Source: Bacteroidaceae bacterium
GTDB taxonomy: Bacteria; Bacteroidota; Bacteroidia; Bacteroidales; Bacteroidaceae
Length of the DNA: 36,984 bases
Assembly: GCA_017398805.1 (NCBI GenBank)
Contig: JAFQEZ010000106.1
Coordinates: 1-36,984 of the forward strand
Direction of reading: 5' to 3'
Position numbers and translations under genes: made by a program. The notes beneath the pieces are model-generated. The model was not told the DNA's origin, did no database searches, and was given only the letters and a program-made list of their open reading frames with translations. Below, piece by piece: positions 1-11,828 of the stretch (the stretch's first letter is position 1; each line of letters begins with the position of its first letter).

Positions 1-835
1 GATGATTGTACCTTCTCGTTGGTTTGCAGGAGGTCGAGGTCTTGATGATTTTAGAGATGAGATGCTACATGACGAAAGGATACGCACCATTGTTGATTTT
101 CCAATTTCTTCAGAATGTTTCCCTGGTGTAGAAATTAAAGGTGGTGTATGTTATTTTCTGTGGGATAGAGATAGTAAGGGGGATTGCGAAATTAAGACCA
201 TGAGAAATAATGAAGTATCAACAATGCGGAGACCTTTGCTTGAGAAGGGGTGTGATACATTTATTAGATATAATGATGCTATTTCAATATTAAGAAAAGT
301 TCAAGCATTCAAAGAGCCGACTATGAATACTCAGGTTAGTTCTCAAAAACCTTTTGGCTTTAGAACTTTTGTAAAAGGAAAAGAAAAACCATTTATTGGA
401 GCTGTAAAGCTGTATGCAAACAAAACCGAGGGTTATGTAGATAGAGCCGAGATAACTCAAAATATTTCTTGGGTAGATGAATATAAGATATATATAACTC
501 GTGCTTATGGAGCAGGCGAAGATTTTCCACATCAGATATTAAACAAACCTTTCTTGGGTGAACCGAATACATGTTGTACTGAAACCTATATGGTAATAGG
601 ACCTTATGCCAATAAAAAGAGAAGTGAAAATGTGCTCTCATATATCAAGACTCGATTTTTTCGATTTATGGTATTATTGAAGAAGAACACCCAAGATGCA
701 CCTGCAAGAGTTTATTCCTTTGTCCCTATTCAAGATTTTACAAAAGAGTGGACTGATGAAAAACTGTACGCTAAATATGGCTTAACAGATGATGAGATAT
801 CTTTTATTGAATCAATGATACGCCCAATGGATTAA
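1..835 (+). CDS. Eco57I-type DNA methyltransferase, C-terminal part (5' end outside window)
   Basis: The reading frame is open to the left edge, and its first visible residues (MIVPSRWFAGGRGLDDFRDE) match an internal block of Eco57I-like N6-adenine methyltransferases, a short way past the NPPY catalytic motif. I therefore read it as the last ~277 residues of a longer protein rather than a gene starting at base 2. Also visible is the block SSECFPGVEIKGGVCYFLWDR, typical of this family; the rest should be the target-recognition region. In the family this module methylates adenine, either as the modification half of a restriction system or fused to a nuclease. The AdoMet-binding motif and catalytic NPPY lie outside the window, so activity cannot be judged. 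The gene is AT-rich, and 89 bases separate it from the SIR2-like gene, which has its own promoter. Confidence 0.8.
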   Translation, partial: MIVPSRWFAGGRGLDDFRDEMLHDERIRTIVDFPISSECFPGVEIKGGVCYFLWDRDSKGDCEIKTMRNNEVSTMRRPLLEKGCDTFIRYNDAISILRKVQAFKEPTMNTQVSSQKPFGFRTFVKGKEKPFIGAVKLYANKTEGYVDRAEITQNISWVDEYKIYITRAYGAGEDFPHQILNKPFLGEPNTCCTETYMVIGPYANKKRSENVLSYIKTRFFRFMVLLKKNTQDAPARVYSFVPIQDFTKEWTDEKLYAKYGLTDDEISFIESMIRPMD

Positions 836-873
836 AAATGTATTGCACTATGAAAAGACATTTGCTCTTAAAA

Positions 874-906
874 TTTGCAAACCGTACATAGCATACATTA
901 TTTTTG
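874..906 (+). promoter_or_regulatory. Bacteroidota-type promoter for the SIR2-like gene
   Basis: TTTG at 874-877, a 21-base spacer and TATTTTTG at 899-906 match the primary sigma consensus of Bacteroidota (TTTG, 19-21 bases, TAnnTTTG). Transcription would begin near 913, about 12 bases before the ATG at 925. The SIR2/GIY-YIG pair can therefore be transcribed without the upstream methyltransferase. Confidence 0.6.
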
Positions 907-924
907 TAGAAAACTCGAAAGATT

Positions 925-1968
925 ATGAATATAGAACAGATGATAGAAATTTATCCCCAAAGACCCCATTTGGTTATTTTGGGAGCAGGTGCAAGCAAAG
1001 ATGCAATGCCTGATGGGGATGCCAATGGCAAGCCTTTACCCGTTATGAGTGAGTTTATTAGCACCCTTAACTTAACTGATTACATAGGAAAGATAGAGGG
1101 AGTTCCCAAGACTGACAACATAGAGGATGTGTATTCTTGGTTAGCGAACCAAGAGCGTTTTGTCGATGAGCGTATTGTTGTAGAGAATGAAATTAGGGAG
1201 TATTTCTCAAATATCACACTACCAGATACCTTAACAAAATACGATCTACTAGTGTTATCCCTTCGGCAAAAAGATTGTATTGCAACCTTTAATTGGGATG
1301 GATTATTGGTACAAGCATACCAAAGAATGCAGAAGATTACTACAGACCTACCACAAATGGTTTTTCTACATGGCAATGTTGAGGTTGGTTATTGCCCAGA
1401 GTGTAAAACTTATGGTTATTGGTTTGCAAAATGCCATAAATGTGGAGAACAACTACAAAGTGTACCTCTATTGTATCCTGTAAAAAATAAAAATTATCAA
1501 AAGAATGAGTTTATTAGTGAACAATGGAAAATCTTAGAGGATTTTATTTCCAAAGCAGCACTGATTACAATATATGGATATAGTGCTCCAAAGACAGATA
1601 TTGAGGCTATCAATATTCTAAAAAAGGCCTTTGCTCGGTTAGGGACACCACGATATTTTGATATAATTGAAATAATAGAGCATCCAAAATTTGACACGAA
1701 AAACATTAGTGAGGCGTGGTTAGACTTATCAGAGATGGCAAGAGACCATCTTGAACTTCGCAGGTCAGTGTTTGATAGTTATATGTTCAGAAGTCCCCGC
1801 CGTTCACTTGAATTTTTACACAAGAATCGAATAGCTTCATCGTGGTGGGGAGAATCGAGTATCAAATTCACACAAGAAGACATTAATGAAGATAAGATAT
1901 CCGCATTAGAAACAAAGATTTTACCTCTACTAAAAAATGAAGATAGTGGTAATCCTGATGTCATTTAA
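925..1968 (+). CDS. SIR2-fold (NAD-binding) defence-type protein
   Basis: 347 residues. A Rossmann-type start VILGAGAS (residues 17-24), TFNWDG (121-126), LHGN (148-151) and GYS (218-220) appear in the order of the SIR2/sirtuin fold. Asn123 and His149 fall where the catalytic Asn and His are expected. Between them and GYS lie two CxxC pairs (Cys157/160, Cys170/173), a complete sirtuin-style zinc site that many defence SIR2 proteins lack. No signal peptide or membrane segment is seen. SIR2 effectors in prokaryotic immunity often hydrolyse NAD; deacylation is the alternative. The ATG at 925 follows a good promoter, and the stop is 6 bases before the GIY-YIG/helicase gene, so the two form an operon. 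Fold: confident. Activity: inferred. Confidence 0.8.
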   Translation: MNIEQMIEIYPQRPHLVILGAGASKDAMPDGDANGKPLPVMSEFISTLNLTDYIGKIEGVPKTDNIEDVYSWLANQERFVDERIVVENEIREYFSNITLPDTLTKYDLLVLSLRQKDCIATFNWDGLLVQAYQRMQKITTDLPQMVFLHGNVEVGYCPECKTYGYWFAKCHKCGEQLQSVPLLYPVKNKNYQKNEFISEQWKILEDFISKAALITIYGYSAPKTDIEAINILKKAFARLGTPRYFDIIEIIEHPKFDTKNISEAWLDLSEMARDHLELRRSVFDSYMFRSPRRSLEFLHKNRIASSWWGESSIKFTQEDINEDKISALETKILPLLKNEDSGNPDVI

Positions 1969-1974
1969 TAAAAT

Positions 1975-4893
1975 ATGCCAAACAACTTCTTCCCTCAACG
2001 CCCGACTGTTACTCCAACGATATACGCATATCGCCTGATTGGAGTTGATTCCCACAAAGGCTATTTGAAAGTAGGCTATACCGACCGTACAGCCAAAGAA
2101 CGCATAGATGAACAACTGCACACAAGCAAAGTGCAGTATGAGATTGTATTGGTGGAGTCGGCAATGAGCAACGATGGCTCTTGCTTTACCGATAAGGATG
2201 TTCATCGTCTGCTTGAACGCAAAGGTTGCAAACGCCTTAACCCGCTTGACAAAACCGATGAGTGGTTCCGCTGCTCGGTTGCTGATGTTATGGCTGCTAT
2301 CTTGTCACTCCGCACAGGGGTTGCGAACGAGGAGAACAGAACGCAAAACTTTACCATGCGCCCCGAGCAGTTCCGTGCAGTAGAGCAGACAAAAACTTAT
2401 TTTGAACAAGCAAAGAACTCAGAGCCTAACCGCATACCCAAGTTCCTTTGGAACGCAAAAATGCGTTTCGGAAAGACATTTGCCTCGTATCAGTTGGCAA
2501 AGAAAATGTGCTTGTCTCGTATCTTAATCCTCACCTTCAAACCCGCAGTTGAATCGGCTTGGCGTGAAGACCTTGTTTCACATATCGACTTTGAGGGGTG
2601 GCAATATATCTCCAACAAGGATGCTCGCAACAACAATCTGAACATAGACCAAGAGTACCACAGAGCGGACAAATCAAAACCCATAGTTGTGTTCGGTTCG
2701 TTCCAAGACCTGCTTGGTACAAACGAGAGTGGCGGAATCAAGACTAAGAATGAGTTTATACACGCCACCAATTGGGATTTGGTAATCTTTGACGAATACC
2801 ACTTTGGTGCTTGGAAGGAGCGTGCAAAGGAGCTGTTTGAAAAGGAGGACGAAGAAAGTGCAGTAGATTTTGATGCCGAGAAGTACAAGAAGGACGAGGC
2901 TAACAATGCCATAAATGAATCGTGGTTGCCAATCTCAACAAAGTATTATCTTTTCTTGTCGGGCACTCCGTTCAGAGCTATAAACAATGGTGAGTTTATA
3001 GAGGAGCAGATTTTCAACTGGACTTACAGCGATGAGCAACGGGCAAAAGCAGAATGGAAAGGGAGCGATAATCCGTACTTTGCCTTGCCCCGAATGGTAA
3101 TGCTCACCTACCGTATGCCCGATGAGATACAAGAGGTAGCCAAACAAGGAGAATTTGACGAGTTCGACCTCAATCTGTTCTTTGCAGCAGAGGGTAAAGG
3201 CGAGAATGCTCGTTTCAAATATGAGAATGAGGTACAGAAATGGCTCGACCTTATTCGTGGCGGTTATTTGCCAGCAAGTGTAGATGATTTGAAACTCGGA
3301 CAAGACAAGCGACCTCCAATGCCATTCAGCGATACAAGGTTGCTTAATGTACTTTCGCATACATTGTGGTTTTTGCCCAATGTGGCATCGTGCTTTGCAA
3401 TGGCAAACTTGCTGAAGCAACGACAAAACAAATTCTATCACGACTACAAAGTGATAGTATGTGCCGGAACAGCAGCCGGTATAGGCCTTGATGCACTGCA
3501 TCCAGTTCAAGCCAATATGGGCGATCCTTTGGAGACAAAGACCATTACACTCACTTGCGGTAAGCTGACAACGGGTGTAACAGTAAAGCCCTGGACAGGT
3601 ATATTTATGCTCCGCAATTTGAAAAGCCCCGAGACCTATTTTCAGGCTGCGTTCCGCGTGCAGAGTCCTTGGGAAGTTAAGAACGAAGAGGGAAGCAAAA
3701 CCATAATGAAGAACGAGTGCTATGTATTCGATTTTGCACTCGACCGAGCTTTGCGTCAAATATCGGATTACAGTTGTCGCTTGGATATAAACGAGAGTAA
3801 TCCCGAAGCAAAGGTAGGCGAATTTATCAAATTCTTGCCGGTATTGGCTTACGATGGTAGTAGTATGAAAGAGGTCGATGCACAGGATATTCTCGATATT
3901 GCATTGGCAGGAACATCGGCGACACTGCTTGCAAAGCGTTGGGAATCGGCTCTGCTTGTCAATGTGGATAACGATACACTCAAGCGCTTGCTTGCAAGCC
4001 CCGAGGCAATGAAAGCCTTGATGAACATCGAGGGCTTCCGCAACCTTAACAGTGACTTGACAACCATCATCAACAAATCCGAGGCTGTCAAGAAGGCAAA
4101 GAAAGAAAATCCCGACCCGACACCAAAGGAGAAGAAGGAGCTATCAGCCGAGGAAAAGGAGATGAAGAGCAAGCGCAAGCAGATACAGGAGAAACTCATC
4201 AAGTTTGCTACCCGAATCCCTGTATTTATGTACCTGACCGACTACCGCGAGCGTTGCCTGAAAGATGTTATCACGCAGTTAGAGCCGGGCTTGTTCAAAA
4301 AAGTTACAGGCTTAAGCGTTGAGGATTTCAATATGCTTTGCTCGTTGGGCGTGTTCAACGCACCGCTAATGAACGATGCTATCTTCAAATTCAAACGATA
4401 CGAGGATGCCAGTCTTACTTATACCGGCATTGACAAACATACCAATGATGAGGTCGGCGGTTGGGACACCACTATCCGCAAAACTCAATATGAGAAGCTG
4501 TTCTATAATCAGCAATCCTCTATGAGTGAGATTGATTATAGTTCATATTCAAAGAGTAACGAAACTACTGAATATAAGCGTACAGAACAGCAAAGAACGG
4601 CTATAAAGGTAGAGAAGCCTAAATCAACGTGCATTGTCCAATCTGAGCCAGCGAGGTCGGCAGCACCTTCTATTCCAACATCTTCTGCAGCTCCCAACAA
4701 AGCCGAAATTGACCTTAAAGCCCAATTAGAAGCATTGGCCGTGGATAGCACCGTGCTTCACAAGAAATTCGGCCGCGGCACTATAGTGAAGATTGACAAG
4801 AGCGCAAAGTTCATCCACATAAAATTCTACGCCAGCGAAAAGAAATTCATCTTCCCCGATGCGTTTGTAATGGGATTCTTGGAGGTGGAATAA
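1975..4893 (+). CDS. GIY-YIG (T5orf172-like) nuclease / DExH helicase / tudor-like restriction protein
   Basis: 972 residues. Residues ~16-105 look like a T5orf172-type GIY-YIG nuclease (YRLIGVDSHKGYLKVGYT, Arg43, His77, closing DEWFRCS). A superfamily-2 helicase follows: Walker A-like AKMRFGKT (161-168), motif II DEYH (273-276), a SGTP motif III, and a C-terminal RecA-like lobe with TTGV and QAAFRVQ. After a Lys/Glu-rich charged stretch, the last ~50 residues (HKKFGRGTIVKI) resemble the tudor-like tail of UvrD/PcrA helicases. The architecture fits a translocating restriction enzyme or effector that cuts unmodified or foreign DNA. It starts 6 bases after the SIR2-like stop. Its GC content is visibly higher than that of its AT-rich neighbours, suggesting a separate origin. 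Cofactors and target are unknown. Confidence 0.8.
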   Translation: MPNNFFPQRPTVTPTIYAYRLIGVDSHKGYLKVGYTDRTAKERIDEQLHTSKVQYEIVLVESAMSNDGSCFTDKDVHRLLERKGCKRLNPLDKTDEWFRCSVADVMAAILSLRTGVANEENRTQNFTMRPEQFRAVEQTKTYFEQAKNSEPNRIPKFLWNAKMRFGKTFASYQLAKKMCLSRILILTFKPAVESAWREDLVSHIDFEGWQYISNKDARNNNLNIDQEYHRADKSKPIVVFGSFQDLLGTNESGGIKTKNEFIHATNWDLVIFDEYHFGAWKERAKELFEKEDEESAVDFDAEKYKKDEANNAINESWLPISTKYYLFLSGTPFRAINNGEFIEEQIFNWTYSDEQRAKAEWKGSDNPYFALPRMVMLTYRMPDEIQEVAKQGEFDEFDLNLFFAAEGKGENARFKYENEVQKWLDLIRGGYLPASVDDLKLGQDKRPPMPFSDTRLLNVLSHTLWFLPNVASCFAMANLLKQRQNKFYHDYKVIVCAGTAAGIGLDALHPVQANMGDPLETKTITLTCGKLTTGVTVKPWTGIFMLRNLKSPETYFQAAFRVQSPWEVKNEEGSKTIMKNECYVFDFALDRALRQISDYSCRLDINESNPEAKVGEFIKFLPVLAYDGSSMKEVDAQDILDIALAGTSATLLAKRWESALLVNVDNDTLKRLLASPEAMKALMNIEGFRNLNSDLTTIINKSEAVKKAKKENPDPTPKEKKELSAEEKEMKSKRKQIQEKLIKFATRIPVFMYLTDYRERCLKDVITQLEPGLFKKVTGLSVEDFNMLCSLGVFNAPLMNDAIFKFKRYEDASLTYTGIDKHTNDEVGGWDTTIRKTQYEKLFYNQQSSMSEIDYSSYSKSNETTEYKRTEQQRTAIKVEKPKSTCIVQSEPARSAAPSIPTSSAAPNKAEIDLKAQLEALAVDSTVLHKKFGRGTIVKIDKSAKFIHIKFYASEKKFIFPDAFVMGFLEVE

Positions 4894-4965: not shown

Positions 4966-6258
4966 TTAGTAGTCAATTACAATAACACTTTCTCGAAGCT
5001 TTCCAATCTTATCGCTTTGCTGAGGACTAGTTTTTAAATCTCTAGCTTTTCGTATTTCTCTAACACGGAAACCGCATGATTCAGCAATATCTGCTATTAT
5101 ATAATCAACAGGAACTTCGACACCATAATATGCTGAATTTGCAACGTTAAAATAAATGACACCACCTTTACGCATTTTCTTCGAGAATGCAGAAAATAGG
5201 AACTGCATATCTTCAAAATATGCACATATCATATTTATAATGTCCGAATTCCAAGTTTTACTTGTGTTGTTAGACATTTCTGATAAGCACGCTTTAAGCC
5301 GTCCATTATCTATTGGAGTAATTCTCTCATAAGAAACTTGCACGTGAGAACGTAATGTGTTTTTACGCAATGCACGAAGTTCCTCATGGGAGTTTATAAG
5401 TTGTAGAACTTTTAACTCCAACATATATATATCTGTGTAATCTCTTGAGTTTAGATATGGAGGTGATGTTATAATCAGGTCTATTTCTCCATCAGGCACA
5501 TGCTGTATAGACTTTCTTACATCGCCCAAATAACATATCTCAGAATTATGCACAGTAGGATTCTCTTGTGAGATGATTCTAATATCCTCTGCAAAAATTG
5601 AATTTAATTTGTCCAAGAAGAAATTATGGATCTCCTTTCGGTTAAAGATTCTAGTTTCCCATCCTTTTTTGTACGACAAACACTTGCCATTACGAAACAT
5701 GTTGCTTGCTTGAACTATGATTGACGCTAGTGCGATTGTAAATAAATTCTTATAATCATCATCGTCAATAATAGTTCTAATAGCATGTCGTATATCAAGA
5801 ATACCATCTATAGCAGTATCATGAAAATTCCATTTTCTACTATACTCTCTTTTTACAATCGTATCGCCAAAAGGTAATGTTTCTATTTTGCGTATATTTC
5901 GGCTTGTACGTGACAACTTATTTGTTACAGCTTTAACATAATGAGCAAAGGTTTCTACATTATATTTTCTACCTAATTTGACAGTTGATAAGAGATGCAT
6001 AAAGGGACTTACCTCAAAAGAATAGCACTTTATCCCGTGATTTTGCAGTTCGACTGGAGTTGTTCCACTTCCACAGAAAGGTTCTAATGCGCAGGTCGGT
6101 GCAAAAGGCAATTCATTCAAGATGTCTTCAATAAACTCTTTAGAATATCCTTCTACAAAAGGGTACCAACGATGTACAAAAACATTCTTGTTTTTGTCAA
6201 ATTGCATAACCGAATGGTATTTTTCTGTGCAATCTATGAATTTATAGTCTTTGTACAT
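4966..6258 (-). CDS. Site-specific DNA methyltransferase (FxGxG / SPPY type)
   Basis: 430 residues from the ATG at 6258; a TTG 9 bases upstream is a less likely start. An AdoMet-binding motif EPFCGSGTT (residues 59-67) comes first, and a catalytic motif TSPPYLNSRDY (264-274) comes later. SPPY is most common in N4-cytosine methyltransferases, though adenine methylation is not excluded. The ~200 residues between the motifs are probably target recognition. It is the last gene of the minus-strand operon, 11 bases after the PD-(D/E)XK gene, as expected if it protects host DNA from that nuclease or marks DNA for the complex. It is AT-rich like the rest of the operon. Confidence 0.85.
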   Translation of the reverse strand: MYKDYKFIDCTEKYHSVMQFDKNKNVFVHRWYPFVEGYSKEFIEDILNELPFAPTCALEPFCGSGTTPVELQNHGIKCYSFEVSPFMHLLSTVKLGRKYNVETFAHYVKAVTNKLSRTSRNIRKIETLPFGDTIVKREYSRKWNFHDTAIDGILDIRHAIRTIIDDDDYKNLFTIALASIIVQASNMFRNGKCLSYKKGWETRIFNRKEIHNFFLDKLNSIFAEDIRIISQENPTVHNSEICYLGDVRKSIQHVPDGEIDLIITSPPYLNSRDYTDIYMLELKVLQLINSHEELRALRKNTLRSHVQVSYERITPIDNGRLKACLSEMSNNTSKTWNSDIINMICAYFEDMQFLFSAFSKKMRKGGVIYFNVANSAYYGVEVPVDYIIADIAESCGFRVREIRKARDLKTSPQQSDKIGKLRESVIVIDY

Positions 6259-6269
6259 AGTTGTCAATA

Positions 6270-7385
6270 TTAGTTGGGATGTTCGTTTATTACTCTAAAA
6301 TCATCTAATTTTACATGTCTGTAATAAGCTGGTTTATCTTTCTCTGGTATTTGATCGATTGTCATGCCTATTCCTGTATCGGGAAGTTCTTCATCTCTAG
6401 CATCAAATACAGCTAAATATCCCAACTTAAAATCTTTCTCCTCTGCCAATAATTCTGTTATGTAAGAGGTTGACTGCTTAAAAGCATCAGGTACAATACG
6501 TGGTTGAGCACTATATGTAGTTCCTATTTTCTTACCTAAATAGTGAACACTAGTTCCAACCCACTTAACTTCTATAAAATATAGCCCTTCGCCATCTTCA
6601 TCAATCATAGCAATATCCAATCTCTTCAAACTTTCCAACATGACCTCTTTTTGCACGAAGAATACTTTTAATTTTTCCTTTAAGAACATGCGTAAATCAT
6701 CTCTAAAACAATCCTCAGGTGTATTTCTGAGTAATTGCTTATTGGCTTTGATAAATTGTTCCTCATTAAGTTCTGAGTTCAAATCTTGTCTTAAAGATTT
6801 TAAATGACTTTTCTCGACAAAGAATTTAGAGTAGGTGTCCCTGAGTTTTAAGTGTTTTCTATATTCCTCAAGTACTCTCGGCAATTCTGAAATAGGCTTT
6901 TTGCTATTGAATGAGTGTAAAGTAGAACTTTCATAGAAAATGGAATCACCTCCATCGCGACCGTTAACAAAATAATTGATAATCCCTTCTGGAGCTACCA
7001 TAAATACAACGACACCATCCTTTGACATTTGTGTGAAGATACGTCTAGTTTCATTGTTGTCTTTATGCAACTCGTTATTAACTTCTTGAATATTAAAGTT
7101 GGAGTCAATGACAATGTGGCGATTTTGAACAAATATTGGATTCGTAAATAACTGTTCAATAGCACTATCCGCATTATTGGTGAGATTCTGCAAGTCTTCT
7201 TCTGATATAACAATATATTTAAAACTATTGTCAGGGTGTTTATCGCACATCGCTTTTATGAGCGATTGCATAAGTTTGAAGTTGTCAGTAGCCTCTAATC
7301 CATTTAATGCCGCATCCACTATAGCATCTTGATTACGTTTTAGCAAATCTTTGAAGTTTGCATTTTGGCTAAATCTTGTTTTCAT
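6270..7385 (-). CDS. PD-(D/E)XK nuclease-like protein, putative ABC-3C effector
   Basis: 371 residues. The C-terminal third carries a PD-(D/E)XK-type core: Glu224 in PEDCFRDDLRMFL, Asp257 in KRLDIAMIDEDG, and Glu272-x-Lys274 in YFIEVKWVG. This is the spacing expected of restriction-type nucleases. The N-terminal ~200 residues match nothing I recognise; they include a hydrophobic strand (VVVFMVAPEGIINYFV) and a predicted helical stretch. There is no signal peptide. The gene starts 6 bases after the middle-component gene and is followed 11 bases later by a DNA methyltransferase gene. In ABC-three-component systems the third gene commonly encodes such an effector, released or steered by the ATPase. 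Nuclease fold: fairly confident. Role: inferred from context. Confidence 0.7.
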   Translation of the reverse strand: MKTRFSQNANFKDLLKRNQDAIVDAALNGLEATDNFKLMQSLIKAMCDKHPDNSFKYIVISEEDLQNLTNNADSAIEQLFTNPIFVQNRHIVIDSNFNIQEVNNELHKDNNETRRIFTQMSKDGVVVFMVAPEGIINYFVNGRDGGDSIFYESSTLHSFNSKKPISELPRVLEEYRKHLKLRDTYSKFFVEKSHLKSLRQDLNSELNEEQFIKANKQLLRNTPEDCFRDDLRMFLKEKLKVFFVQKEVMLESLKRLDIAMIDEDGEGLYFIEVKWVGTSVHYLGKKIGTTYSAQPRIVPDAFKQSTSYITELLAEEKDFKLGYLAVFDARDEELPDTGIGMTIDQIPEKDKPAYYRHVKLDDFRVINEHPN

Positions 7386-7391
7386 AACCTG

Positions 7392-7979
7392 CTACTTTAT
7401 AATTTCGCTAAATACATACTCAAAATATAACTCTATGTATTTTTCATCGCTGATAGCTGAAGTATCATCAAGACTTTGTTCAAAGGCAACTTTGAAATCT
7501 TTGAGGACTTTTAAAGTTTCGCTATCAGGTGATGATGTGTCTATACCATCAACATTGTTAGTTTGAGATGCGTTTTCATAAGACGGATCATTGACGATGA
7601 ATCCAAACAGACGTTTTTCACCGTACTTACCTAACATATACATAACAGTTCTCAACCATTCAACCTTTTCTTGATTCAAAGGTATTTCCTTTTTAGTGTT
7701 TAGAATCAAGCCTCCCTCTTCTTCACGTAATTTCGAGGAGCTTTTCAAAAAAACTAAACTTCGTTCTATTAAATCTGAATATGGGCCGAAGGTCGTTACT
7801 GTAAAATGGTAATATGAAAAGATGTTATCTCCTTCATGCTTGAATGAATAGAGAACTTGAACCAAGTACAATATCCTTTGGAAAGATTGTTCAGAGACAG
7901 CTCCCCAACCCATACTTTTAGCAATGGTCGAGACGGTTACAATATCTTCATTTGCTCTTATTAAATTCGTTTCTAACAT
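7392..7979 (-). CDS. Small middle-component-like protein of an ABC-three-component system
   Basis: 195 residues, no enzymatic motif. The segment FQRILYLVQVLYSFKHEGDN followed by TTFGPYSDLIERSLVFL recalls ABC-3C middle components and, more distantly, the Panacea/SocA fold (a helix with LLYL, then a GPYS turn). The C-terminal ~70 residues are polar and acidic. Its ATG overlaps the stop of the ATPase gene by 7 bases (ATGTTAG), so the two are probably translationally coupled and the proteins made in fixed ratio. Identification rests on size, the LYL...GPYS pattern and position between an SMC-like ATPase and a nuclease; another adaptor family is possible. Confidence 0.55.
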   Translation of the reverse strand: MLETNLIRANEDIVTVSTIAKSMGWGAVSEQSFQRILYLVQVLYSFKHEGDNIFSYYHFTVTTFGPYSDLIERSLVFLKSSSKLREEEGGLILNTKKEIPLNQEKVEWLRTVMYMLGKYGEKRLFGFIVNDPSYENASQTNNVDGIDTSSPDSETLKVLKDFKVAFEQSLDDTSAISDEKYIELYFEYVFSEIIK

Positions 7980-9988
7980 AATTCCAATCTGTTTTTTATG
8001 TGATGATAGATTGATTTTAATTGTTCACTTGTGTGTTGTATAGTAGATTGTTTTGCAATATCCAATAAACCAACAATACCAAGATCAATATCTTCCTGAT
8101 CTAATAAATGTTCAATAAACAGACTATTATTCAGGTTTGATGTTATAATTAATGAGTTTGGTTTCTTTAGAAATTCAGCAAAAACACTTGCGGCATTCCT
8201 TTCGTATGATATATCCAAACTGCTGTCAGGAGTCTCAACTATATAAAAAGATGGTGTTCTATAGAAGAACGTCAAAATACTCATTCTAAAGGAATGATCT
8301 ACAAAAAATCTTTGCGATTCAGACATTTCTTCTTCGTAAAATCGTACTTTCCCGTCAATAACAGGATAAAAACGCTTGTTCGAGTCACCGGCCTGTTTGA
8401 TATACGTCAACTCGCAAGGTACACCTAAAAATTTTCCGGCGTATTGAGCAAAAATAGATGAAAATACGTGAACATTAGATGTTATAACATCTTCAATCTC
8501 GTTTGATATTGAGGTCACTATATCATATTGCTCGTCACGTTGTTTTTGGTATGCTTCTTTTTGCTGGGTCAGACGGTTTACTTCATCTAAGAATGGCTGA
8601 ATTGAATTTTGACTGTTATCAGACATAGCATTTTCATACTCAAGTTCCCTTACTTGTTGCTGAATAGTTCTTCTTCCCAGTTCAATTTTAGCAAACTCTG
8701 CATCCAAATTAATTATTTGTTGTTCAATATTTTGTATTGACCGTTTTTTGCTATTGATGGACTGATACAATGTTTTTCTATGTGTACTTATGTCATCAAA
8801 GCGTTTTTTTAATATTGTGTCTGCTTCCGTGTTTTCATTAATTGAAGAATTACACGCAAAGCAACGATCTGAATTGTTTGCAACTTTTTCTACAAATTCA
8901 TCATTTGGCTGATTGCACATTGGACAAATGTGGTTTAACTGAATGTTCTTTATAAAAACATGATATGACGGATGTAAGGTCTCCCATATATGATTATTCA
9001 GCTGCTCCTCTATTTGTTTTAACTGTTTGTCTATATCGTTTGCAGATAAGCTAATTTTATTAATTTCATTTTGCAATAGTGATATATCTTGACTTTTCGA
9101 AGCACGTTCTTTTTGTATGGACGCTAGTCTAGTATCCATTTCAGCAAGTTTACCTTTTAAGTCTATAAGAATAAGTGCAGTGTTCCCCTGATTAGCTGTA
9201 GAATTATTGGCTGATGGAGAAGTGTCCTTCATTTTGCTTAACACTTTATTTATAGCTCTCATGTCTTCTGAACTATGACGAGACAAACTGTCAAAGTATT
9301 TAGCTTTTCTGATAGCCTCTTGTCGTTTTTTGTCAAGATCGGGGTCATTGAAATATTTATTAAATAATTCACTTTGCACATCTGGTAAAAAGTCACCATC
9401 GTTCCAAAGAATGGTTTTATGGTCTTCTCCGAAAAACAGAACTTCGTTTACAAAAAATATCAGATCATCAAATTCCAAATTTGTGTTAACCTTAATAATT
9501 TTCTCATATTTATAAGGCAACGTGTCAACTTTCGCTGCATCTGATAATTTTTCATAACCGAACTGATTGATTAATGTGCCCAATATTTCTATTCCATCAA
9601 CTTTAAGTTGTGTCAATGTTATGGAGGATAAATCTCTTGTCAGTTCAACTATGACATTGTTTATCTTCATCCTAATCGTTACTGTAGGAGAAGCATCCGT
9701 GTGAATGCTGTCGTCCATACGATTACTGAAATACTTTTGTGGAAATAGTTGACGCTTTTCTATGATATTTCCTTGATATGTCCGAGTATATCCAAACGGT
9801 TTTTTGTATAACCCGAGAATGGCAAATCGAATAATGTTGACAAAGGTGGTCTTTCCCATGCCATTACCACCTAAGACTAAATTGACTCCTTTAACAAAGT
9901 CAAAGGTGTAATCCAGACCGTTGGGGTATAAAGTATAATTCTTTATGTTTATACTTAACAACTCTGGTAGATATATTTGCCTACTCAT
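7973..9988 (-). CDS. SMC/Rad50-like ATPase with double-CxxC zinc element
   Basis: 671 residues. The Walker A is GGNGMGKTT (40-48). Two predicted coiled-coil stretches (about 275-335 and 385-500) flank a zinc element with CPMC (355-358) and CFAC (376-379). The C-terminal lobe has the signature MSESQRFFVDHSFRM (555-569) and a Walker B FYIVETPDSSLD (581-592), where the usual DE pair reads ET. This is the head-coil-hook-coil-head plan of Rad50-type ABC ATPases, with a two-CxxC knuckle rather than a single Rad50 CxxC. Family members are thought to sense or bridge DNA and gate a partner effector. It is the first gene of a four-gene operon. A TATCTTTG element ~95 bases upstream may be its promoter. 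Confidence 0.85.
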   Translation of the reverse strand: MSRQIYLPELLSINIKNYTLYPNGLDYTFDFVKGVNLVLGGNGMGKTTFVNIIRFAILGLYKKPFGYTRTYQGNIIEKRQLFPQKYFSNRMDDSIHTDASPTVTIRMKINNVIVELTRDLSSITLTQLKVDGIEILGTLINQFGYEKLSDAAKVDTLPYKYEKIIKVNTNLEFDDLIFFVNEVLFFGEDHKTILWNDGDFLPDVQSELFNKYFNDPDLDKKRQEAIRKAKYFDSLSRHSSEDMRAINKVLSKMKDTSPSANNSTANQGNTALILIDLKGKLAEMDTRLASIQKERASKSQDISLLQNEINKISLSANDIDKQLKQIEEQLNNHIWETLHPSYHVFIKNIQLNHICPMCNQPNDEFVEKVANNSDRCFACNSSINENTEADTILKKRFDDISTHRKTLYQSINSKKRSIQNIEQQIINLDAEFAKIELGRRTIQQQVRELEYENAMSDNSQNSIQPFLDEVNRLTQQKEAYQKQRDEQYDIVTSISNEIEDVITSNVHVFSSIFAQYAGKFLGVPCELTYIKQAGDSNKRFYPVIDGKVRFYEEEMSESQRFFVDHSFRMSILTFFYRTPSFYIVETPDSSLDISYERNAASVFAEFLKKPNSLIITSNLNNSLFIEHLLDQEDIDLGIVGLLDIAKQSTIQHTSEQLKSIYHHIKNRLELC

Positions 9989-10067: not shown

Positions 10068-10511
10068 CTAATTTAGGTGCAAAGATAATAAGAAATATCC
10101 AAAATCTGATATGTCAATGCCATTATTTACCATACGTAATTTCAACTTGATATGTTTTATTTGTTGTTTAAGGAAATCAAAAAACTTACTAAATTTTCTT
10201 TTCGTTGGCAAACACTCTTCAATACCTTCTGTCTTATTCTGTTCGATTAATAGGTTGTTCAAGCGAAACACAAGTGCAAAAACCACTTCAAGATTGTAGA
10301 ATGTTGTCCAACTTGCAGGAGTAACCAAATCACATCGTTGAGTTGTTGCAGGGTTAAGTATTCCGCTCTTATATATCGCTCTGATGGCAACTCGGAGTGT
10401 CCGGGCTATCACCCTGAACAACTCCACCAATTCCATTTCGGACATCCAAACATTACCGCATGGGATATTCACTCTGCCATTCTCGCTTATTGTTATAATT
10501 GCTCGTTCCAT
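10068..10511 (-). CDS. RhuM-like/wHTH-type small protein of Bacteroidota mobile elements
   Basis: 147 residues. The start (VNIPCGNVWMSEMELVELF) resembles the DNA-binding front of RhuM-type proteins (VWLT..QMAELF) and a family I associate with integrase regions of Bacteroidota mobile elements. The remainder (AIRAIYKSG, then YNLEVVFALVFRLNN) is probably helical and has no known motif. Its ATG at 10511 lies 2 bases after the stop of the integrase remnant, so the two were once co-transcribed. The C-terminus is basic. Function unknown; a transcription factor for the element is a reasonable guess. Confidence 0.6.
   Translation of the reverse strand: MERAIITISENGRVNIPCGNVWMSEMELVELFRVIARTLRVAIRAIYKSGILNPATTQRCDLVTPASWTTFYNLEVVFALVFRLNNLLIEQNKTEGIEECLPTKRKFSKFFDFLKQQIKHIKLKLRMVNNGIDISDFGYFLLSLHLN
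10080..10087 (-). promoter_or_regulatory. -7 element (TATCTTTG), possible promoter of the ABC-3C operon
   Basis: Read on the minus strand this is a perfect TAnnTTTG. It lies inside the last codons of the upstream gene, and the ATPase ATG is about 90 bases downstream. I see no good TTTG at the usual distance, so the call is tentative. The leader also holds the palindrome TTGCATGCAA (10021-10030). Confidence 0.35.
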
Positions 10512-10513
10512 AG

Positions 10514-10795
10514 TTACATTGCGATTGAAATTTCACTAAACGATTGATTAAGTCTGTTGCCGAACATCGTCAAATCCTTGTCTATTTTCTCGGTGATAAT
10601 CTTGGCATACTTTTGTGTTGTGGTAATGTTCGTACGCCCCAATACTCGGCTGACACTACCAATGGGGACACCCTTGCTCAGAGCTAATGTCGCGAACCCA
10701 TGGCGACTTGAATGGAATGAAATATCCTTTGAGATTCCACACCCTTTTATCATCTTTTTCTGTGCTTTGCAGATTTTCCAATAGTATATTACAAC
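10514..10795 (-). pseudogene. Tyrosine recombinase (integrase), C-terminal remnant
   Basis: The frame holds only the last catalytic part of a phage-type integrase: SFHSSRHGFATLALSKG (the HxxR box), SVSRVLGRTNITTTQKYAKI (Gly-Arg-Thr-Asn in place of the more usual Gly-His-x box, then the Tyr nucleophile in TQKYAKI). The homology runs about 15 residues further up than the first ATG (10753), as VVIYYWKICKAQKK, directly after an in-frame stop near 10796. The N-terminal arm-binding and core domains and the first catalytic Arg are missing, and I find no continuation in another frame before 11050. This is a stump left by decay or replacement, and it marks the right side of the island. Confidence 0.8.
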
Positions 10796-11106
10796 TTATT
10801 CCCTTTACAAATATTCTGGTTTCTAATGCGAAGTCGGGGTGTTTAATCGATAAGTAATGAAGTTGAATATGCTTATTTCTTAAAATTCGGTAATTTGGCG
10901 AAGATTTGTTCGGTGATTTGGTTTACATAATAGCACTATCTATTGTTTTCTGTAAATAGAGATTACTGGGTTTACAATACGAACTCTGTAATTTTTTCTA
11001 TCCTGTTTTTACATGCCAAAGGCCGAGTACCACCTTTGAATTTTTGATGATTTTTCAAATGCAAAGATGCGAAAGAAGTTTCTCCAAACAAAATATCCAT
11101 TCATTT
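10796..11106. other. Gene-free AT-rich stretch beside the integrase remnant
   Basis: No complete gene is seen. It holds a near-direct repeat (TTCGGTAATTTGGC / TTCGGTGATTTGGT, around 10891 and 10908) and a small inverted repeat CAAAGG/CCTTTG (about 11021-11038). On the minus strand a short open tail reads ...YVNQITEQIFAKLPNFKK-stop near 10876-10930, possibly the end of a lost gene. It looks like a junction or decayed segment of the mobile element. Confidence 0.4.
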
Positions 11107-11139
11107 GTTTCCAAAATGGGAAACTTTATTTTAGATTTG
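11107..11139 (+). promoter_or_regulatory. Promoter plus overlapping palindromic operator of the XRE gene
   Basis: GTTTCC-AAAATG-GGAAAC (11107-11124) is a perfect 6-bp inverted repeat. The -7 element TAGATTTG (11132-11139) is a perfect TAnnTTTG, and TTTC (11108-11111) stands 20 bases before it as -33. The palindrome overlaps the -33 box and most of the spacer, where a dimeric XRE repressor would block polymerase. Transcription would start near 11146, 11 bases before the ATG at 11157. Confidence 0.6.
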
Positions 11140-11156
11140 CAAAAAGAATTGATGTT

Positions 11157-11828
11157 ATGACAGCAAGAATTGATAACATTGGTGCTATGATTCGCAACGA
11201 ACGCTTGCGTCGTGGTATGACCCAAGAGGAACTTGGCGAGTTGGTTGGCGTGGGTAAGGCGCAAATATCAAAAATTGAAAGTGGCAAAGGACTCACCATT
11301 AAAACCATAACAAAAGTGCTTGGTGCCTTGGGGCTATCTGCTTCTGTAAGCCTTAAAAGTGAACAGAGAATTGATAAACGTATTATCGGCTACATTCTTG
11401 CTGCTATAAATGAGTTTGCAGCAGCACACCGGATGACAACCCGTGAAGCGAGCAATTACCTGGTACGTTTCAAAGGCGTGGATTTTCTTGCTGAACACTA
11501 TGAGGCTGAACATCTGTTGTCATTCGATGATAGCGTGCAAGATTTGACTCGTGTATGCATTAATAATGGAGGAGGTGCCGAGGTTGATAAATCATTAAAT
11601 GAACATACCAAATCAAAATCCCAATACCTTGTAGAAGGTATAACAAAGGATATAGTCTGCTTTCTGATGGAAGAAGAAGGGTTTGATTTATCTGAGGCTC
11701 TTGGCATTTTTTATAATTCCGATACTTTTGCAAAACTCACGGACGAGGAAACTGGGCTCTACATTGAGAGTTCTTCCTTTGTCTATGAGATATTGAAATC
11801 AGAGCTTAAATACGGAAAAATACGATAG
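11157..11828 (+). CDS. XRE-family regulator with DUF3791-like C-terminal region
   Basis: 223 residues from ATG 11157. I reject the upstream in-frame ATG at 11067 because the promoter and operator lie inside that extension. Residues ~1-60 are a Cro/CI-type helix-turn-helix (NIGAMIRNERLRRGMTQEEL, VGKAQISKIESGKG). The middle (IIGYILAAINEFAAAHRMTTREASNYL to HYEAEHLLSFDD) resembles DUF3791, and the last ~60 residues (CFLMEEEGFDLSEALGIFYNSDTFAKL...ETGLYIESSSFVYEIL) resemble small proteins I associate with DUF3791/DUF3990 toxin-antitoxin-like clusters. This looks like an antitoxin-type repressor fusion with no toxin gene beside it. The DUF assignment is from memory. Autoregulation is suggested by the palindrome. 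Confidence 0.7.
   Translation: MTARIDNIGAMIRNERLRRGMTQEELGELVGVGKAQISKIESGKGLTIKTITKVLGALGLSASVSLKSEQRIDKRIIGYILAAINEFAAAHRMTTREASNYLVRFKGVDFLAEHYEAEHLLSFDDSVQDLTRVCINNGGGAEVDKSLNEHTKSKSQYLVEGITKDIVCFLMEEEGFDLSEALGIFYNSDTFAKLTDEETGLYIESSSFVYEILKSELKYGKIR

Follow-up and report, generated by a model that had tools for sequence, protein, structure and literature searches.

Positions 4966 to 9988 of a 36,984-nucleotide stretch of DNA from a Bacteroidaceae bacterium (contig JAFQEZ010000106.1 of assembly GCA_017398805.1; the whole stretch is called the window) hold a minus-strand operon of four genes encoding an SMC/Rad50-like ATPase of the ATP-binding cassette (ABC) class, a small middle protein, a predicted PD-(D/E)XK nuclease and a DNA methyltransferase. 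Comparison of the four proteins with their relatives suggests that the operon is probably a mobile restriction-modification-like defence system, whose restriction part would be an SMC/Rad50-type machine. More tentatively, it may represent a distinct type of restriction-modification, in which an N4-cytosine-type mark labels self and an SMC/Rad50-like clamp, carrying a nuclease on a Panacea-like adaptor, finds and cuts non-self DNA.

The ATPase gene (9988–7973, 671 amino acids (aa)) is the first of the operon and is followed by the genes of the middle protein (7979–7392, 195 aa), the nuclease (7385–6270, 371 aa) and the methyltransferase (6258–4966, 430 aa from an ATG, or 433 aa from a TTG at 6267), with a spacing of −7, +6 and +11 bases when the ATG is used. 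The positions and the strand of these open reading frames (ORFs), the 7-base overlap and the 6-base gap had been given correctly in an initial annotation made from the letters of the sequence, and its last gap of 11 bases is right for the ATG start and shrinks to 2 bases for the TTG start. The G+C content is 0.33–0.35 across the operon region versus 0.50 on the carB side of the window, which fits the expectation for acquired DNA. Scans for promoters and terminators gave counts no higher than those of shuffles (27 versus 28.0 and 3 versus 2.5, respectively).

The main evidence for a single system is that the four genes recur as a unit. From searches with the ATPase 37 non-redundant modules were collected in 35 loci, a sample that is not exhaustive, and their hosts belong to Bacteroidota, Spirochaetota, Bacillota, Chloroflexota and Pseudomonadota or are viral contigs (9 viral and at least 26 genome contigs in the ATPase profile searches). 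Both the nuclease and the methyltransferase are present in 36 of the 37 modules and a recognised middle protein in 35, the sole module without partners (L034) lying where the contig ends right after the ATPase; the methyltransferase, present wherever its place could be inspected, is an obligate partner. Such recurrence (36/37) indicates that the operon is more than chance, and the initial annotation, which had treated the four genes as one set, is borne out by homologous loci of several phyla that keep them together. The count started from 43 loci (the window, L008–L045, L046 and L065–L067), with L038 and L039 excluded for a short ATPase ending at the data edge, L042 and L046 excluded for an ATPase split into two ORFs, and four modules (L018, L020, L025 and L026) dropped at 97% identity or above. 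In L046 the methyltransferase and the middle protein are present and a 300-aa ORF that is not recognised by the nuclease profile stands at the place of the nuclease, and in the L015 pair a 202-aa ORF that is not recognised by the profile stands at the place of the middle protein. Because the profiles were built from loci that belong to this set, their E-values are flattering; ORFs read directly also showed the genes to be present.

Further searches led to the same set of genes. Two distant Bacteroidota genomes found by the ATPase alone (395 searched) possess all four genes, as do three loci from an independent draw on 398 Pseudomonadota genomes. In reverse searches of viral contigs with the closer alignments both nuclease relatives (2/2) and all three methyltransferase relatives (3/3) were located in such loci; a new locus obtained from reverse searches (L119) also has all four genes. 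A near-identical copy, with a middle protein of 99% identity, is present in another family of the same order. The set is rare in genomes: beyond the centre genomes it was detected in 2 of 394 Bacteroidota at a threshold of 1e-06 and, at the threshold of 1e-20 applied to the other phyla, in 4 of 397 Pseudomonadota (one of them, L044, already known) and in 0 of 298, 0 of 150 and 0 of 148 genomes from the phyla of a Lysinibacillus, a Chloroflexi and a Spirochaetaceae locus, respectively. Annotated phage records gave no match to the ATPase. No recurrent fifth gene was found among 303 flanking ORFs of the 35 loci, some of which have short flanks, and the largest shared flanking family is confined to three closely related loci; on this count a fifth gene of the system was rejected. 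In L021 (Bacteroides caecigallinarum) and L022 the DNA similarity to the window starts and stops at the edges of the four genes. The ratio of nonsynonymous to synonymous substitution rates (dN/dS) versus three near relatives, one of them the copy in the other family, is 0.016–0.070 in 11 of 12 gene comparisons, the synonymous rate being saturated in the twelfth, and the four genes are under purifying selection. The genomic contexts look mobile, including the nine viral contigs, flanking genes of L036 and L037 (the latter from Lysinibacillus xylanilyticus) that resemble a Tn7-like transposon by eye, and a VapE-like primase gene adjoining L119.

Within the set the genes are not equally bound to each other. 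Wherever the middle protein is recognised (35 modules), the three genes follow each other as ATPase, middle protein and nuclease on the same strand and overlap or are separated by short gaps. The methyltransferase gene, seen in 36 modules, lies downstream of the ATPase gene in the same orientation (13) or convergent to it (11), or upstream of it in the same orientation (8) or divergent (4). In L010, L011, L065, L066 and L067, where the methyltransferase and nuclease genes converge, the stop-codon ends of the two genes share exactly 4 bases. Tree distances of the ATPase over 35 modules correlate with those of the middle protein, the nuclease and the methyltransferase at 0.97, 0.96 and 0.87, respectively (permutation maximum at most 0.36, 1000 permutations per pair), these values still containing shared species history. 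The three-gene core travels as one, and the methyltransferase is looser. For example, a grouping of L009/L012 with Bacteroidota relatives is rejected by the methyltransferase data (approximately unbiased test, p 0.0099) and allowed by the ATPase data (p 0.4), in a comparison of quick trees for which the group was named after the trees had been seen. It seems that the methyltransferase was exchanged at least once while the other three genes stayed and, taken together with its constant presence, that it is exchangeable and not dispensable. Furthermore, in Burkholderia stagnalis (L008, 3373–13496) and Rhodanobacter (L041, 4008–13948) one methyltransferase gene is situated between two full ATPase-middle-nuclease modules; each of these loci holds one module from each of the same two ATPase branches, and both branches also occur alone, each with its own methyltransferase.

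The ATPase of the window is matched by Pfam AAA_23 (8.5e-08), and a profile of 29 relatives finds SMC, Rad50 and Rad50-hook chains in the PDB. Its Walker A motif GGNGMGKTT (residues 40–48; 9845–9871, minus strand) has G40, N42, G43, G45 and K46 invariant in 37 of 37 rows. The double CxxC of the coiled coil that the initial annotation had described as a knuckle (C355/C358 and C376/C379; 8852–8926, minus strand) is equally invariant, with all cysteines kept in 37/37 rows, and overlaps the match to the Rad50 zinc hook (1l8d, 6zff), so that it presumably forms a zinc-binding tip of the coiled coil. The presumed ABC signature motif SESQ (residues 556–559; 8312–8323, minus strand), assigned by eye, is kept in 37/37 rows, and in the Walker B/D-loop stretch ETPDSSLD (residues 585–592; 8213–8236, minus strand) L591 and D592 are present in all 37. 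With the canonical motif DEP as the reference for this stretch, the position of the ABC catalytic glutamate (residue 586) is occupied by threonine in 33 and by alanine in 4 of 37 rows; a plain DE is absent there also in the LmuB- and DndD-like ATPases compared, as judged by eye.

Matches to defence models place this ATPase only broadly. The LmuB model PDLC03859 matches 29 of 29 ATPases tested; the same model, applied to 14 control genomes at E up to 1e-10, gave matches in 13, so the match signals only a Rad50/SMC-like coiled-coil ATPase, and it was dropped as evidence of Lamassu membership. The window ATPase scores 59.5 bits with this model versus 357–378 bits for two Lamassu-like proteins. 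Of the 29 ATPases, 25 are matched by PbeC models (best E 2.3e-11 or better) and 27 by the mad3 model, and in profile comparison the ATPase approaches a DndD-like ATPase with E 2e-11, that label being given by eye from a PAPS-reductase-like neighbour gene, and two LmuB-like ATPases with E 7e-07 and 9e-05. On these profile scores its resemblance is to Rad50, DndD and LmuB ATPases generally. In the window's own genome another locus (L097, G000:C83) has in common with L098 (G092:C9) the genes of a 759–764-aa protein, of a single-CxxC ATPase of DndD-like kind and of a protein of 190 aa, adjoined in L097 by a PAPS-reductase-like gene; judged by eye, it is probably another ATPase-based defence set of the same genome.

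The methyltransferase is matched by Pfam N6_N4_Mtase (1.2e-06) and, over residues 10–427, by the PADLOC type II methyltransferase model PDLC03224 (5.8e-53). The S-adenosylmethionine (SAM)-binding motif FCGSG (residues 61–65; 6064–6078, minus strand), with F61, G63 and G65 in 33/33 rows, precedes the catalytic motif SPPY (residues 265–268; 5455–5466, minus strand), which is likewise kept in 33/33 rows together with N270, S271, D273, Y274, D276 and S304-H305-V306. Residues 43–100 align with 223–280 of 2zie and residues 49–115 with 246–313 of M.PvuII, where the SAM motif is C-terminal, and residues 242–276 align with the N-terminal catalytic motif of 2zie; it follows from this order of motifs versus the solved enzymes that the protein is a circularly permuted N4/N6 amino-methyltransferase. 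The SPPY motif is a sign of N4-cytosine methylation, and the enzyme is probably of the N4-cytosine type, the base not being settled because adenine enzymes are among the PDB matches. In the tree the methyltransferases of the system are separate from eight outside relatives with a weak support of 70, and the outside relatives adjoin an AvaI/BsoBI-family restriction enzyme, or a second methyltransferase and an HNH endonuclease, or other genes. A relative of the methyltransferase occurs in 29 plasmid records; of the eight that were opened, two hold the system or most of it and six do not. Another methyltransferase alignment found at least 17 weak relatives on viral contigs.

The third protein of the operon is predicted to belong to the PD-(D/E)XK type. 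Its putative core E224-D257-E272/K274-Q304-Y308 (6462–6716, minus strand) is built of residues of which the first five are kept in 36/36 rows and Y308 in 35/36, and the PD-(D/E)XK residues D257, E272 and K274 named by the initial annotation are thus in place and invariant. Among 30 relatives, PDDEXK_9 is matched by 5 (best 6.3e-05), DUF234 by 3, and Shedu SduA_C and SfsA by 2 each. The 200 N-terminal residues have no known relative, and an ABC-3C C-terminal docking domain was matched neither in the nuclease nor in its 30 relatives. A search with the single nuclease protein gave no match in viral contigs, plasmids and phages, and among 150 relatives it found the window's own genome only.

The middle protein leans weakly to the Panacea domain. 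SocA_Panacea (PF13274) reaches E 0.0082 and 17.5 bits, under the 25.7-bit cut-off, and matches 2 of 28 relatives at E up to 0.1; against a Panacea profile (9 proteins taken from 11 Panacea matches) the alignment has E 0.0012 over 165 columns with a probability of 19%, versus P 0.11–0.42 in four unrelated control comparisons. P66 is invariant in 35/35 rows, and a PDB profile search gave nothing useful. The initial annotation had likened the layout of three of the genes to that of the ABC-3C conflict systems, and membership of these is not supported, given the unspecific ATPase match and a middle protein that matches none of the ABC-3C middle-component (MC) models of Pfam at E up to 1. Its 28 relatives match nine families at E up to 0.1, no MC family among them. 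Pfam contains MC2 as PF20288, which had no matches anywhere in its search, beside other MC models.

From sequence and its comparison we infer the formation of a complex, the DNA-reading subunit, the cleavage, the methylated base and the defence role, and the comparative data favour the earlier suggestion that methylation marks self and would gate the nuclease. In the proposed mechanism the methyltransferase would methylate a short motif in host DNA, probably to N4-methylcytosine, and the ATPase dimer would be a clamp with a zinc-bearing coiled-coil tip, carrying the PD-(D/E)XK nuclease via the middle protein. The clamp may load onto DNA and sample it, and where the mark is absent the nuclease would be released or placed; invading phage or plasmid DNA would thereby be cut, the host being spared.

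Several points weigh against this proposal. No nuclease family reaches its cut-off with the window nuclease alone in Pfam and other family searches, and no solved structure falls below E 0.6 with the nuclease profile against the PDB; the tree correlations retain the species history mentioned above; and the rates of exchange are unequal, the methyltransferase tree correlating less well, and the apparent L009/L012 exchange of a distant relative is awkward if the restriction module alone reads a fixed motif. In addition, Lamassu-type ATPases are regarded as sensors of DNA ends or structure, a mode that would need no mark.

An alternative, considered unlikely, is a Lamassu/ABC-3C-like abortive system, where the complex would sense DNA ends or replication structures and destroy DNA indiscriminately, and the methyltransferase would only shield or tune the chromosome without discriminating self from non-self. 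The general layout is common to Lamassu, ABC-3C and DdmABC, which also combine a coiled-coil SMC/Rad50-like ABC ATPase, a small middle protein and an effector nuclease in three tightly ordered genes, and the LmuB models match all 29 ATPases and align over most of their length. The published action of Lamassu, given in the relevant sections of the sources as abortive infection with a sensor of DNA ends or structure (PMC10586767, PMC12904381), counts for the same alternative. However, the three Lamassu-like loci opened (L094–L096, one ATPase gene being broken) show the order effector-middle-ATPase with a single CxxC, the profiles used found no such methyltransferase in them, and their middle proteins do not match that of the window in profile comparison, whereas here the order is ATPase-middle-nuclease, with two CxxC, another kind of middle protein and an obligate DNA methyltransferase, whose presence in 36 of 37 modules is more than a mere modulator would demand.

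Somewhat less probable still is an arrangement similar to BREX or type I systems, with the methyltransferase as the specificity subunit through which both modification and restriction read DNA, so that exchanging it would exchange both. That the methyltransferase seems to have been replaced while its three partner genes stayed, and that it can serve two divergent modules, speaks for such an arrangement, but in 15 of 36 modules its gene is convergent or divergent, outside the operon, and its relatives are stand-alone type II enzymes. It is very improbable that the nuclease acts on methylated DNA or that the methyltransferase is an antitoxin-like or regulatory partner: Panacea-like domains are antitoxin domains, so the middle protein might keep the nuclease silent, but type II-like enzymes related to the methyltransferase are found next to ordinary restriction genes, and family searches of the window proteins found no modified-base reader domain. 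That separate defence genes merely came to lie side by side by chance in a defence island, as the second modification system next door could suggest, is ruled out by the survey (36/37 modules, reverse searches, no recurrent fifth gene, and similarity limited to exactly four genes in L021 and L022).

The restriction-modification-like reading can also be placed among other known systems. CxC ABC-ATPase, PbeABCD and Dnd systems share a coiled-coil ABC ATPase with a zinc hook, as the PbeC matches (25/29) illustrate, and the nearest published parallel is the set of CxC ABC-ATPase/DndE systems, which, according to the relevant passages of the source, are sometimes accompanied by circularly permuted N4-cytosine methylases (PMC10853773). 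Unlike PbeABCD and Dnd, the hook here is CxxC twice (37/37) and not CxC, and the effector is a PD-(D/E)XK protein; a DndE partner, an HKD-helicase protein or a disordered small protein does not recur among the 303 flanking ORFs, and the middle protein and the nuclease have no Pfam match named DndE or HKD-helicase. The methyltransferase is of the type II kind, with relatives beside restriction enzymes, but the part presumed to restrict consists of an ATPase machine of three proteins, unlike the stand-alone sequence-specific enzyme of type II restriction-modification. MADS similarly joins a methyltransferase and an ATPase in one defence system, and its mad3 model matches 27/29 ATPases, but it is an eight-gene system, whereas only four genes recur here. 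Finally, the PD-(D/E)XK core is shared with Shedu and PDDEXK_9 nucleases (SduA_C 2/30, PDDEXK_9 5/30), from which the nuclease differs by the weakness of these matches and by its N-terminal 200 residues without known relative.

Literature searches returned no description of the four-gene set among the matches listed, and an earlier mention is possible, notably in the 2020 survey of ABC ATPases. Krishnan et al. in 2020 reportedly described ABC ATPases acting with restriction-modification systems. In the relevant sections of a 2026 review, modification-based systems (restriction-modification, BREX, DISARM, MADS, Druantia) and SMC-like systems (Wadjet, Lamassu) are presented as separate ways of finding foreign DNA, and it is asked why SMC nucleases spare the host chromosome (PMC12904381). 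The four-gene set seems to unite these two strategies, usually described apart. If the proposed mechanism is true, the set would be a missing link between SMC-based (Wadjet, Lamassu) and methylation-based immunity, the mark would solve how an SMC-nuclease spares the chromosome, and in the two-module loci a single mark would license two machines. Licensing of the SMC-nuclease by the methyltransferase would further make self-avoidance directly testable by removing one gene or methylation site, and the four-gene set would be a compact, portable tool.

The neighbourhood of the operon contains several other genes related to defence and mobility. A second modification system lies convergent to it (window 2–4893, plus strand) and includes an Eco57I-type methyltransferase (Pfam Eco57I 3.8e-07), truncated where the contig ends, and a T5orf172/ResIII helicase protein of 972 aa (GIY-YIG/helicase). 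These two genes are separated by a 347-aa ORF (925–1968) with a GAGAS motif seen by eye and no Pfam or PADLOC match; since they are adjacent in a related contig (L020/L004), the difference looks like the result of an insertion or a loss. Directly upstream of the operon, the stretch 10068–10753 (minus strand) holds the C-terminal fragment (79 aa) of a tyrosine recombinase, matched by Phage_integrase at 2.1e-08, and an ORF of 147 aa that matches the candidate defence family PDC-S05; both occur in L004/L020 too and mark the edge of a mobile island. Further on, a single ORF at 11067–11828 (plus strand) combines HTH_3 with DUF3791 and matches pieces of three small candidate-defence families (PDC-M13A, PDC-M13C), and it looks like a fused toxin-antitoxin-like gene.

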